Source: Carboxylicivirga sediminis
Lineage (GTDB): Bacteria > Bacteroidota > Bacteroidia > Bacteroidales > Marinilabiliaceae
DNA length: 43,985 bases
Assembly (NCBI RefSeq): GCF_018156225.1
Contig: NZ_JAGTAR010000045.1
Coordinates: forward strand, 1 to 43,985
Reading direction: 5' to 3'
A program made the position numbers and the translations under genes. The notes under the pieces were generated by a model. That model ran no database searches. It had not been told where the DNA came from and saw only the letters and a program-made list of their open reading frames with translations. The first letter of the stretch is position 1. Each line of letters opens with the position of its first letter. Below are positions 21,004-26,723 of the stretch, piece by piece.

Positions 21004-21253
21004 TGGTTAGTTGGCAGAAGGCAGAAGAAAAAGAATGAAGCACCATTAGAATCGCTAGTCTCTGGCAGCTATCTAAAGACATAAGATGCAGGACGCAAGA
21101 AAAAAACACAATCATTCAACTTTTCAACTTTTAAACTCTAGACAGGGAATAAAGGCGGTTGATAGAAGACGAAAAAGACTAAAGCGCCAAGGAAGCAACC
21201 ATTAGCCATTAGCTTTCACTCTAAACCCACAACTCATAACTCTCAACTAGAAC
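21004..21253. repeat. Low-complexity intergenic segment, unit A of a tandem duplication
   Basis: No gene. Words such as GGCAGAAGGCAGAAG, AGCCATTAGCTTTCACTC and AACTCATAACTCTCAAC recur in similar order upstream of the second permease (22490-22624), so the intergenic DNA was duplicated with the gene. No terminator is visible, consistent with operon read-through. Confidence 0.65.
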
Positions 21254-22414: not shown

Positions 22415-22624
22415 GAAAGACACGAGATGAAAGACATAAGACGGGTGACGGAATAAATTGAAGCATAAAGGAAATGGCTATTAAAGTCAGTAGTTAATAG
22501 TTTGAAGGCAGAAGAAAAAAGAATTAAGCACCCTGGAAATAGCTGGAAGCTATCAGCCATTAGCTATCAGCTTTCACTCAAACCCTAAACTAAAAACTCT
22601 AAACCTACAACTCAATACATAAAA
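22415..22624. repeat. Low-complexity intergenic segment, unit B of the duplication
   Basis: No gene. It shares word order with 20985-21253, including GAAGGCAGAAGAAAAA near 22504 and AGCTTTCACTC near 22575. It ends in A/C-rich filler before the start codon of permease 2. Confidence 0.65.
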
Positions 22625-23773: not shown

Positions 23774-24136
23774 AAATGAGATGTCTGGTCGTCATAATAG
23801 AGGTGGTATTGCGGTGTGTTTTACCGACATTAGATACGATGTTTGGGCACCCATTGGCATAAGCGGAGGTAAGAAAAATTTGGAACCAAGCTGTGAATTT
23901 TTAAATTTTTCCCGAAGTGATGCCTTTATGGGTAAACGAGTACTACAGTCGGCGGCTTTTTTCTCACCTTTTTGAGCTGTAGGCAAAAAGGTGAAGCCTC
24001 AACGGCTTGAGTTGAAGATAAAAAAAGGTAGTTTGATAATATAAAACAGAGTAATAAGATATCAATATAATAAAAGGTATAGTTGATGCGCAATCTACTG
24101 ACCACAGACTATTAACTACTGACTAATAAACGAATC
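23774..24136. other. Non-coding gap with long hairpin and probable dispersed repeat debris
   Basis: 363 bases without a supported gene. Two overlapping open frames of 64 codons on opposite strands lack start context and protein-like composition. It contains an 11-bp perfect inverted repeat (23964-23974 with 23984-23994) extended by GGCTT/AAGCC (23954-23958 with 23994-23998). After it comes AT-rich filler ending in ACTATTAACTACTGACTAATAA-like words before permease 3. Confidence 0.5.
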
Positions 24137-25411
24137 ATGATACAATTTTTAATCAAAGGGATATTACGCGATAAAAGCCGAAGTCTGCTGCCAATAATAG
24201 TAGTCTCTTTGGGCGTGTTTCTGACTGTTTTTATGAGCGGATGGATGAAAGGCGTGTTTGGCGATATGATTGATATGAATGCTAACTACACCATGGGCCA
24301 TGTGAAGGTGATGACTCGTGCCTACGCCGATAATGAGGCGCAGATTCCAAATGATTTGGCATTGCTGGATGTGAGTGAGCTCATCAGCCGTTTGGAAGCC
24401 GATTATTCCAATATGGAATGGGTGCGACGCATCCAGTTTGGTGGACTCCTGGATGTGCCCGATGCCAATGGCGAAACAAGGGCGCAGGGACCAGCAGCCG
24501 GACGCGCGATTGACCTGTTAACACCCGGCTCAAAAGAGGCAGAGCGCCTTAATATTCCTAAATCGATTGTTGAGGGGCGCTTACCTGAGCAGCAAGGTGA
24601 AGTACTGATAAGCAACGAATTCGCCGAGCGTTTCGCTGTCAATATTGGCGATGATATTTCGGTGATGGGTTCAACCATGTATGGCAGTATGGTAGTGCCT
24701 ACCTTCAAGGTGTGTGGTACCATTAATTTTGGGATGGCCATGCTCGACCGGGGTGCCATCATCATGGATATTACCGATGCCGAACAGGCCTTTGATATGA
24801 TAGATGCCGCTGGTGAGGTGTTGGGCTACTTTAAATCAAACATATACGACGATGAGCTGGCTTTAGCAGTGCGCGACAGCTTCAACCTGAAATACAGCGA
24901 CGAGAGCGATGAATTCGCACCCGTTATGGTACGATTACGCGATGAGCCTTCGCTGAAACAGTATCTGAACATGGCCGATAATATGAGTGCCATGATGGTG
25001 ATGATATTTGTAATTGCCATGTCCATTGTGCTTTGGAATACCGGACTGCTGGGTGGCTTACGGCGATACACCGAGTATGGTGTGCGACTGGCATTGGGCG
25101 AAGAAAAAGGGCATATCTTCCGCACCATCATCTACGAGGCCATCATCATTGGCTCCATTGGTTCGGTGGTGGGGTCGGCACTGGGCATTGCAACATCTTA
25201 TTACCTGCAGGAGAACGGTATCGATTTTAGTTCGATGATGGAAAACGTGACCATGATGATGCCTACGGTTTACCGTGCTAAGGTATCGCCCGAACTGTTT
25301 TACATTGGCTTTATACCTGGTTTGCTAGCCATGACGATGGGGAATGCTTTGGCCGGATACGCCATCTATAAGCGCAAAACGGCACAGCTGTTTAAGGAGC
25401 TGGAGGTGTAA
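24137..25411 (+). CDS. FtsX-type ABC permease 3 (distinct subfamily)
   Basis: 424 aa, longer and only distantly like permeases 1 and 2. An N-terminal membrane helix (about 13-35, SLLPIIVVSLGVFLTVFMSGWMKG), a periplasmic domain with the typical MacB/LolE features (EGRLPEQQGEVLISNEFAERF around 150-170) and three C-terminal helices with TEYGVRLALGEEKGHIFRTIIYEAIIIGSIGSVVGSALG (about 312-350) are visible. The position after the duplicated pair fits a LolC-plus-LolE type heterodimer in which this is the constant partner. Its stop is followed by the 21-bp periodic array. Confidence 0.9.
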   Translation: MIQFLIKGILRDKSRSLLPIIVVSLGVFLTVFMSGWMKGVFGDMIDMNANYTMGHVKVMTRAYADNEAQIPNDLALLDVSELISRLEADYSNMEWVRRIQFGGLLDVPDANGETRAQGPAAGRAIDLLTPGSKEAERLNIPKSIVEGRLPEQQGEVLISNEFAERFAVNIGDDISVMGSTMYGSMVVPTFKVCGTINFGMAMLDRGAIIMDITDAEQAFDMIDAAGEVLGYFKSNIYDDELALAVRDSFNLKYSDESDEFAPVMVRLRDEPSLKQYLNMADNMSAMMVMIFVIAMSIVLWNTGLLGGLRRYTEYGVRLALGEEKGHIFRTIIYEAIIIGSIGSVVGSALGIATSYYLQENGIDFSSMMENVTMMMPTVYRAKVSPELFYIGFIPGLLAMTMGNALAGYAIYKRKTAQLFKELEV

Positions 25412-25449
25412 ATCTGTGAACCTAACAGGTTTTAAGCTAGAAATTGCGC

Positions 25450-25751
25450 GTGATATTGGCACATTTGGTGTGATATGCTATTGCTAAAGCGTGATATGGA
25501 AATGATTGTGCGTGATATTGGGTTGCTCTGGCGTGAGATCGCATTCAGCTGGCGTGAGATTAAGTTGATAGTGATGTGAGATGACATAAATTAGGTGTGA
25601 GATGGTGATCGCGCGGTATGAGATCGACCTAATTATGCATGATATTGTGGCAGTTCACCGTGATATTGAGTCATTCGGGCGTGAGATCGAGTATTGTTGA
25701 CGTGAGATCGACTTGTTTATATGTAATATTGGATTAAAGACCATGTTATTG
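25450..25751 (+). repeat. 21-bp periodic array of short GTGATAT/GTGAGAT cores
   Basis: Cores begin at 25450, 25470, 25491, 25512, 25533, 25554, 25576, 25597, 25618, 25639, 25660, 25681, 25702, 25723 and (weak) 25743. Spacings are 21 bases apart from one 22 and two of 20. The core is [C/G]-[G/A]TGA[T/G]AT-[T/C/G]G; the ~12 bases between cores are not conserved. Frames on either strand are broken by stops. Reading cGT-GAN-ATN as codons gives repeated R/C/H/Y-D/E-I/M with hydrophobic filler, so a decayed coding origin is possible. It fills most of the 398-base gap before the LolA-like gene. Confidence 0.85.
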
Positions 25752-25809
25752 ACTTAATGAGGTGACGGCTGTTGACCAATAAAAAGTAACAAACTAATAA
25801 TTAAATGAT

Positions 25810-26544
25810 ATGACACGAATAATAACGCTATTACTGATAGTCTCTTTAAGCATTGTGGGCAAAGCACAAACAGCCGATGAAATCATCAAAAAGATAGACG
25901 ATAACATGTCCGCCGATACGCGCATCGTTGAGTCGAGCATGACTATTCATGGTCGTCGTAACAGTCGCACCATTACATCGGTAAGCTACACCATGGGCAC
26001 CGAAAAATCATTTACCGAATACCTGTCTCCGGCGCGCGAGAAGGGCACTAAAATGCTTAAGCTCGATGACCGCCTGTGGACCTACTACCCGGCCAACGAT
26101 CGCATTGTTCAGATTTCCGGTCACATGCTGCGCCAGTCATTAATGGGGTCTGACTTGTCCTATGAGGATATGATGGATGATCGTAAACTGTGCGATGTAT
26201 ATGCACCAGTCATCGAATCTACCGAAACCATTGACGGGCATAAAGTGTTTGTGCTAAAACTTACAGCCAAGGTGGATAATGCAGCTTACTATTCGCGCAA
26301 GCTATGGGTTGATGAAACCTATTTCTTACCTGTTAAAGAAGAGCTTTACGCCAAGAGTGGTCAGCTGCTCAAACGCACAGTATTGAGTGATTTTAAACAG
26401 ATAAAAGGCCGCTGGTACCCCATGAAGTTTAACTTTAAAGACGTGCTCAAGCAAGGCGACGGCACCGACTGGGAAATCATCAGCATCAAGTTTAATGAAG
26501 AAATTCCTGATTACCTGTTTACCAAAGCGGCTCTGAAGCAGTAA
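25810..26544 (+). CDS. LolA-like periplasmic outer-membrane lipoprotein-sorting protein
   Basis: 244 aa, with signal peptide MTRIITLLLIVSLSIVGKAQ. The mature protein has the all-beta LolA/LolB-like fold pattern of the PF17131-type family: ESSMTIHGRRNSRTITSVSYTMGTEKSFTEYLSPAREKGTKMLKLDDRLWTYYPANDRIVQISGHMLRQSLMGSDLSYEDM (about 41-120) with the characteristic G-S-D-x-S-Y-E-D-M. Such proteins are thought to carry lipids or lipoproteins across the periplasm. It is last in the TetR-headed run after the permeases, which supports an envelope lipid or lipoprotein export role. It is separated from permease 3 by the 21-bp array. Confidence 0.85.
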   Translation: MTRIITLLLIVSLSIVGKAQTADEIIKKIDDNMSADTRIVESSMTIHGRRNSRTITSVSYTMGTEKSFTEYLSPAREKGTKMLKLDDRLWTYYPANDRIVQISGHMLRQSLMGSDLSYEDMMDDRKLCDVYAPVIESTETIDGHKVFVLKLTAKVDNAAYYSRKLWVDETYFLPVKEELYAKSGQLLKRTVLSDFKQIKGRWYPMKFNFKDVLKQGDGTDWEIISIKFNEEIPDYLFTKAALKQ

Positions 26545-26698
26545 AGCATCTGGCGAACTATCGGTTTGTATGTGCAACCTGGGCGGTCATCCAGATTGTT
26601 TCAAATATGAGTTGCGTTATTTTGCTCATCTTTTGAATCAATTTTTGATGGTATATGAGTTGTGTTGAGCAGCTCCTCCAGGTAGCCTTCAATTTATG

Positions 26699-26723
26699 CA
26701 CACTGCACGGTGAGCGCAGTGTG
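26699..26723. terminator. Candidate bidirectional terminator between convergent genes
   Basis: Perfect 8-bp stem (26699-26706 with 26716-26723), 9-base loop, immediately beside the stop codon of the minus-strand gene at 26727. T-runs are weak on both sides. Confidence 0.4.

Follow-up and report, generated by a model that had tools for sequence, protein, structure and literature searches.

The window, the whole 43,985-nucleotide stretch of DNA that was analysed (G000:C73), comes from Carboxylicivirga sediminis and holds an array of short repeats in the gap between a permease gene and a lolA-like gene. The features of this region are as follows (window coordinates, strand, description).

24137..25411, + strand, FtsX/MacB-type ABC permease of 424 aa, the upstream gene (PF02687, PF12704)
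25412..25809, no strand, permease / lolA-like gap of 398 bp, which contains the array
25449..25721, + strand, 13-unit array with core [CT][GA]TGA[GT]AT plus 12-14 variable bases and a step of 21 (20 once, 22 once)
25722..25762, + strand, pair of decayed units, TGTAATAT (step 21) and CATGTTAT (step 20)
25772..25801, + strand, sigma-70-like site between the array and the lolA-like gene
25810..26544, + strand, LolA-like outer-membrane lipoprotein-sorting protein of 244 aa, the downstream gene (PF17131, E 3.8e-58)

The 13 cores start at positions from 25449 (first) to 25701 (last) on the + strand. The spacings between them are, in order, 20, 21 four times, 22 and 21 six times, such that 10 of 12 equal 21 bp. 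With the decayed units, which start at 25722 and 25742, there are 11 steps of 21, two of 20 and one of 22, in agreement with a preliminary description of this DNA, which had reported about 15 cores at a 21-bp step with one 22 and two 20. It had also called the gap the only long one; the gap is indeed the longest in the operon, but others of 250, 210 and 363 bp are present (based on ORFs). Sigma-70-like sites are not commoner near the array than in shuffled DNA (two in 25300-26700, with a shuffle mean of 3.3).

Two minor observations concern DNA upstream of the array. A dispersed repeat of ~190 bp at window positions 23822-24016, between the second and third permease genes, has three more matches in its own genome (87, 88 and 72% identical) and an 86% match near an array at C10 in the genome G006 (L036:2845-3038). 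The gaps between ABC genes at 22415-22624 and 21004-21253 contain text with a 7-bp period that is partly purine-rich.

The array's identity at lag 21 is 0.497, whereas 2000 dinucleotide shuffles have a mean of 0.273 (sd 0.027) and none of them reaches the observed value. Even the best lag in the range 10-59 is at most 0.393 in any of these shuffles, so the autocorrelation proposed as a check in the preliminary description does show an excess at 21 bp. When units are cut by spacing alone, within two stretches that have no length change (13 units in total), the best seven columns contain 10.4 bits and the core of the chained units is recovered; 5000 random rotations give at most 3.9 bits. TRF, run with a minimum score of 30, did not list the array.

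The spacers had been described as unrelated, which is not fully correct. Their pairwise identity is 0.361, compared with 0.266 (sd 0.013) expected from composition, and this is matched by 0 of 500 shuffles. Given this residual homology, the units seem to derive from one 21-bp repeat by extensive divergence, rather than being random inserts. The reported blocks of T- and G-type cores (TTTTGGGGGTTGG) are present, but they are weak as evidence (4 runs, P = 0.042).

The array very probably belongs to the non-coding tandem repeats of bacteria whose units have a constant size of two helical turns. This class is already described but not understood, and the features of the array that were tested here all fit it. 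Papers by Subirana and Messeguer deal with such repeats (PMC8161180, PMC6749651, PMC8625621). According to the parts of PMC8161180 drawn on here, Bacillus has tandem repeats of 20-21 and of 52 nt, and many bacterial groups have 20-23-nt repeats that are constant in size, free in sequence and mostly non-coding. Also described there is a short conserved sequence within constant-size repeats that are otherwise variable. The authors equate 20-21 nt with two turns of the helix. They regard the function as unknown, proposing either small RNAs or a nucleoid protein, and they give the 52-nt repeats as occurring in Firmicutes only (PMC8161180). The preliminary description had held that this is not a standard feature type, but repeats of 20-21 nt with constant size and variable sequence are, going by the same parts of that paper, already in print.

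Like the published 20-23-nt repeats as characterized in those parts (PMC8161180), the window array has a two-turn unit that is constant within the array (apart from the single spacings of 20 and 22) and is non-coding, with stops in all six frames and one-base length changes. Its core corresponds to the short conserved sequence. Several same-size families of different sequence are found in the genus (22 of the 30 calls described below, with units unlike by eye). The published details, to the extent covered here, concern Bacillus (PMC8161180), whereas the present array belongs to Bacteroidota, its spacers are near saturation and its core is common to two genera. Also unlike those Bacillus details, arrays of 40-42 bp are numerous here, and a single orthologous gap holds arrays that differ between species. 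The 52-nt repeats of Bacillus, again as described in those parts of PMC8161180, resemble the window array in constant size, variable sequence and short conserved motifs, but differ from it in unit size. Literature searches returned nothing on Carboxylicivirga, nor on the core.

This genus offers a handle on the reason for fixed-size, free-sequence, non-coding repeats in many bacteria. One gap between conserved genes holds different 21-bp arrays in three species and none in four. In addition, there are core families in which the spacers have mutated almost without restraint, with little change in core and step.

Within its own genome, the exact paired core is confined to the window locus, and a BLAST search with the array yielded 12 other short matches with E-values of 0.13 or worse. 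As a genome-wide motif, the core is not enriched in the sampled part of this genome (24 seen, 21.8 expected). The preliminary description had proposed a search of the genome and its relatives. The core family is present in 3 of 13 other genus genomes (G006, G008 and G013) and in one genome of another genus (G072), and the genus has other arrays as well. A three-core pattern matched six of 60 genomes, including the window's own. Four of these (G000, G006, G008 and G013) have the core family, and G053 and G055 have other repeats with a 23-bp step. A stricter pattern matched five of 60 family genomes, namely G000, G006, G008, G072 and G065; the G065 repeat is conserved over most of its unit. In a wider core search of 395 genomes of the phylum, six matched besides the window's genome, each with either a simple 7-bp repeat or a repeat most of whose unit is conserved.

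G006 has the core family at three loci (C10, C135 and C200), with different spacers. C135 and C200 have flanks and units in common, and they exhibit higher-order repeats of seven and five units, respectively. C10 and C135 have homologous upstream genes, neither of which has a Pfam match. More generally, 10 neighbours of related arrays were scanned, and among the seven with a Pfam match none was common between loci. In column comparisons with the window's units, those of G006 C10, C135, G008, G013 and G072 were each equalled by 0 of 1000 shuffles, a match that is partly by construction because these arrays had been found by that core. A second core family, TTCCGTAG, occurs at a 21-bp step with variable spacers at three G006 loci (C66, C120 and C175), and in none of the others among 60 family genomes. 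The G013 array of the window's core family (C530, L040:6-377) has seven successive units of 20 bp, and the remainder are 21.

We also applied a lag scan to parts of three genomes of the genus, covering 515 kb of G000 (including the window), 337 kb of G006 and 400 kb of G002. These samples were chosen independently of known arrays, the exceptions being the window and contigs C135 and C162 of G006. The scan made 30 non-coding calls, which include the window's array once, the G002 array L092 twice and two near-copy G006 calls (L136); some calls near the 0.50 threshold are AT-rich text and may be chance. Fourteen coding calls were set aside. Periods of 20-23 and of 40-42 account for 11 non-coding calls each, and the remaining eight are 7 (twice), 8, 11 (twice), 14, 27 and 51. 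Block shuffles of the samples gave two calls in all. Two small controls consisted of 50 kb of E. coli K-12, with no non-coding call, and 80 kb of four other Bacteroidota, with one (period 88, in G032, of the same family).

By eye, the intergenic arrays in these samples mostly have units other than the window's. Their cores differ (CTTCCGTAG, AAGGAGTG, CTGAATGAAA) and include palindromes, e.g., TTTCCCACCATGGGAAA at 41 bp. No clear bias in gap orientation was seen: 29 array calls (periods 10-11, 20-22, 40-44, 61-64 or 83-85) are 16 tandem, 7 convergent and 6 divergent, 14 other calls are 5, 5 and 4, and the 456 gaps of 150 bp or more that serve as background are 303, 55 and 98. In this count genes are ORF calls, and it includes stretches selected for their arrays (the window, L036, L037, L038, L196, L197 and L194).

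The lolA-like gene is found at E 1e-30 in 8 of 14 genus genomes, and the protein is 94% identical between the window and Carboxylicivirga mesophila. The permease-lolA gap is readable in seven genomes (the G013 gap is cut off and is outside the seven). Three have an array in it: G000, G011 (identical in sequence to C. mesophila L028) and G006 (the sequence of C. marina L030). As evidence against its own reading, the preliminary description had named ordinary intergenic DNA at orthologous loci combined with a lack of such arrays elsewhere. The orthologous gap is indeed free of an array in G004, G008, G009 and G010, yet C. mesophila and C. marina have 21-bp arrays there and further arrays lie elsewhere. 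In a more distant relative (L033), the gap contains purine-rich text with a best lag of 35.

In the C. mesophila gap array, 12 of 12 spacings are 21, and its units have no detectable similarity to the window's (p 0.79). The C. marina array likewise has 12 of 12 chained spacings of 21, and beyond the chain comes one spacing of 34; its units are borderline in a column test with those of the window (p 0.04). Similar values were obtained for C. mesophila versus C. marina (p 0.051) and for the window versus L092 (p 0.041). Since 5 of 28 pairs of other, unlike arrays have p < 0.01 in this test (one being a same-genome pair with alike cores), p values near 0.05 mean little. The gap arrays of the three species may represent one array that changed, or separate births. 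This comparison of a gap across species is our main addition to the known repeat class.

Constraint on the core was assessed by simulating repeats that evolve at a uniform rate. In the window, none of 1000 star-tree and none of 1000 coalescent simulations reached the contrast by which the best seven columns stand out from the others, and the column variance was reached by 0 of 1000 and 3 of 1000, respectively. The contrast in G072 and in G006 C135, C200 and C120 was also reached by 0 of 1000 simulations of either type. Eleven segments have seven or more units, and in none of them did more than 21 of 1000 simulations reach the contrast; the coalescent variance test is not significant in four of the 11 (p 0.058-0.43). 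Units chained by their core favour such a test, a bias of which the window's spacing-only cut is free.

Unit length also appears to change little. Among 14 array segments, 117 of 130 spacings equal 21. Under a star tree, spacer divergence in these segments implies ~1100 substitutions. With one indel per 10-20 substitutions as the neutral ratio, length changes should number 56-112, as opposed to 13 seen, seven of which are the one run of 20-bp units in G013; without G013, there are 6 for about 949 substitutions. This deficit would support a constant unit length, but is suggestive only, because a star tree overcounts shared changes, chaining was restricted to steps of 20-22 and the arrays were picked for regularity. 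The seven 20-bp steps in G013 further weaken the case for a strict unit length.

What could maintain such arrays? The best mechanism, which we put forward tentatively and at slightly less than even confidence, is that the cores are phased sites for a putative DNA-binding protein along one face of the helix. The preliminary description had proposed that a 21-bp step places every core on the same side of the DNA, and this idea has gained from the 22 of 30 calls at 20-23 or 40-42 and from the recurrence of the 21-bp step in the C. mesophila gap with a dissimilar unit. Arrays would grow via duplication of one or several units, as is suggested by the higher-order repeats visible in the two related G006 arrays. 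Spacers would mutate freely. Selection would oppose change in core and unit length because the candidate protein would occupy neighbouring cores along one face. It would more probably form a structural or nucleoid-type assembly than regulate the lolA-like gene. If a protein does explain the arrays, they would constitute a new kind of nucleoid or chromatin element.

In favour of the protein we count a core contrast beyond the uniform-rate model, the recurrence of the core family with different spacers, the likeness of the second core TTCCGTAG at three G006 loci, the small number of length changes, the 12 of 12 steps of 21 in C. mesophila and the higher-order repeats of G006 C135 and C200. Against it, we count the difference in cores between arrays of one genome, which would call for several proteins or loose specificity. 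The lack of core enrichment elsewhere in the sampled genome, the four relatives without a gap array, the G013 run of seven 20-bp steps and the four of 11 non-significant variance tests also count against it.

The main rival is a neutral, degenerate minisatellite, i.e., a 21-bp repeat that arose by slippage or recombination and is decaying, with the core kept by conversion or chance and a step that is mutational rather than selected. This reading is possible, although we are inclined to doubt it. It accommodates the residual spacer homology, the higher-order repeats, the absence or change of the gap array between species, the lack of a common neighbour function among those scanned and the run of 20-bp units in G013. 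However, uniform-rate simulations do not produce the core contrast, length changes are few for the divergence (by a biased count) and the period is common to arrays of other units.

It is improbable that the array acts as RNA, e.g., as a small RNA or a sponge whose transcript carries many copies of a short motif. The Bacillus coagulans 52-nt satellites are transcribed, according to the parts of PMC8161180 and PMC8625621 used here, and the core strand of the window array is the sense strand of both flanking genes. However, predicted folding is ordinary (z -1.45 for the + strand, 0.41 for the - strand), the window and seven related loci have no Rfam match at gathering scores, and a sponge does not need an exact step.

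Intrinsically curved DNA, in which two-turn units add bends in one plane and the curvature is selected, would account for units that keep their size while their sequence is free. Of 19 unit sets, two rank high in one of the two models used, L121 in that of De Santis (0.022) and L136 in that of Bolshoy (0.013). However, when real is compared with permuted column order using the two wedge tables, the window ranks at 0.30 (De Santis) and 0.93 (Bolshoy), with medians over the 19 sets of 0.36 and 0.32. The array is thus not more curved than equally periodic DNA, and the core is left unexplained. We rejected a curved DNA element as very improbable.

Still less credible are replication or partition iterons, a centromere (as the preliminary description had also considered) or a CRISPR-like array. 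Plasmid iterons are direct repeats of ~20 bp in helical phase, as here, that are conserved over most of the unit and lie at a replication origin with a rep gene. The window's spacers are 36% identical, the array lies in an intergenic gap of a row of ABC permease and lolA genes, and no Rep, replication, partition or Cas protein is among the six proteins scanned upstream of or adjoining it. CRISPR arrays have identical repeats of some 23-50 bp and unrelated spacers. Constant and variable parts alternate in both, but here the core has 8 bp and the spacers, of ~13 bp, have residual mutual homology. The iteron and centromere proposal also does not fit with an exact paired core that is confined to this locus in its genome, four relatives without a gap array and patterns absent from most relatives (the matches in 6 and, for the stricter pattern, 5 of 60 genomes). 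A coding heptad repeat (7 codons = 21 bp) can practically be dismissed: one reverse frame has few stops in G006 C200 (0 in 83 codons), G072 (0 in 62) and G006 C135 (1 in 118), but one-base length changes break any frame, and the longest open run in the window array is 56 of 106 codons.

As curvature, RNA folding, coding and Rfam searches gave no support, a core-reading protein or a neutral satellite with a mutational step remain. A more specific version of the protein reading is speculative, and we consider it rather unlikely as stated: a filament-forming DNA-binding system with a fixed two-turn footprint would read the cores and ignore the rest. Arrays with differing cores would arise and be replaced in gaps, with selection on step and core and not on the whole unit, such that species would swap the sequence of a gap array and keep its step.

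Two well conserved intergenic arrays in the window's own genome (L056:14284-14646 and L052:451-916) have periods of 41 and 42 bp and lag identities of 0.91 and 0.79. Also in this genome, 41-bp arrays with the palindromic core TTTCCCACCATGGGAAA and its variants, separated by variable spacers, occur at L106:7130-7421 and L110:15606-15891, and by eye some of the variants are altered on both arms. In G004, the palindrome TTGCCCAAACGGGCAA and its variants form a 42-bp array downstream of the lolA-like gene (L067, about 2287-2540), again with variable spacers. The window's own genome encodes three Y1 transposase domains (PF01797; G000:C42, C46 and C111), and these transposases are possible movers of palindromic repeats.
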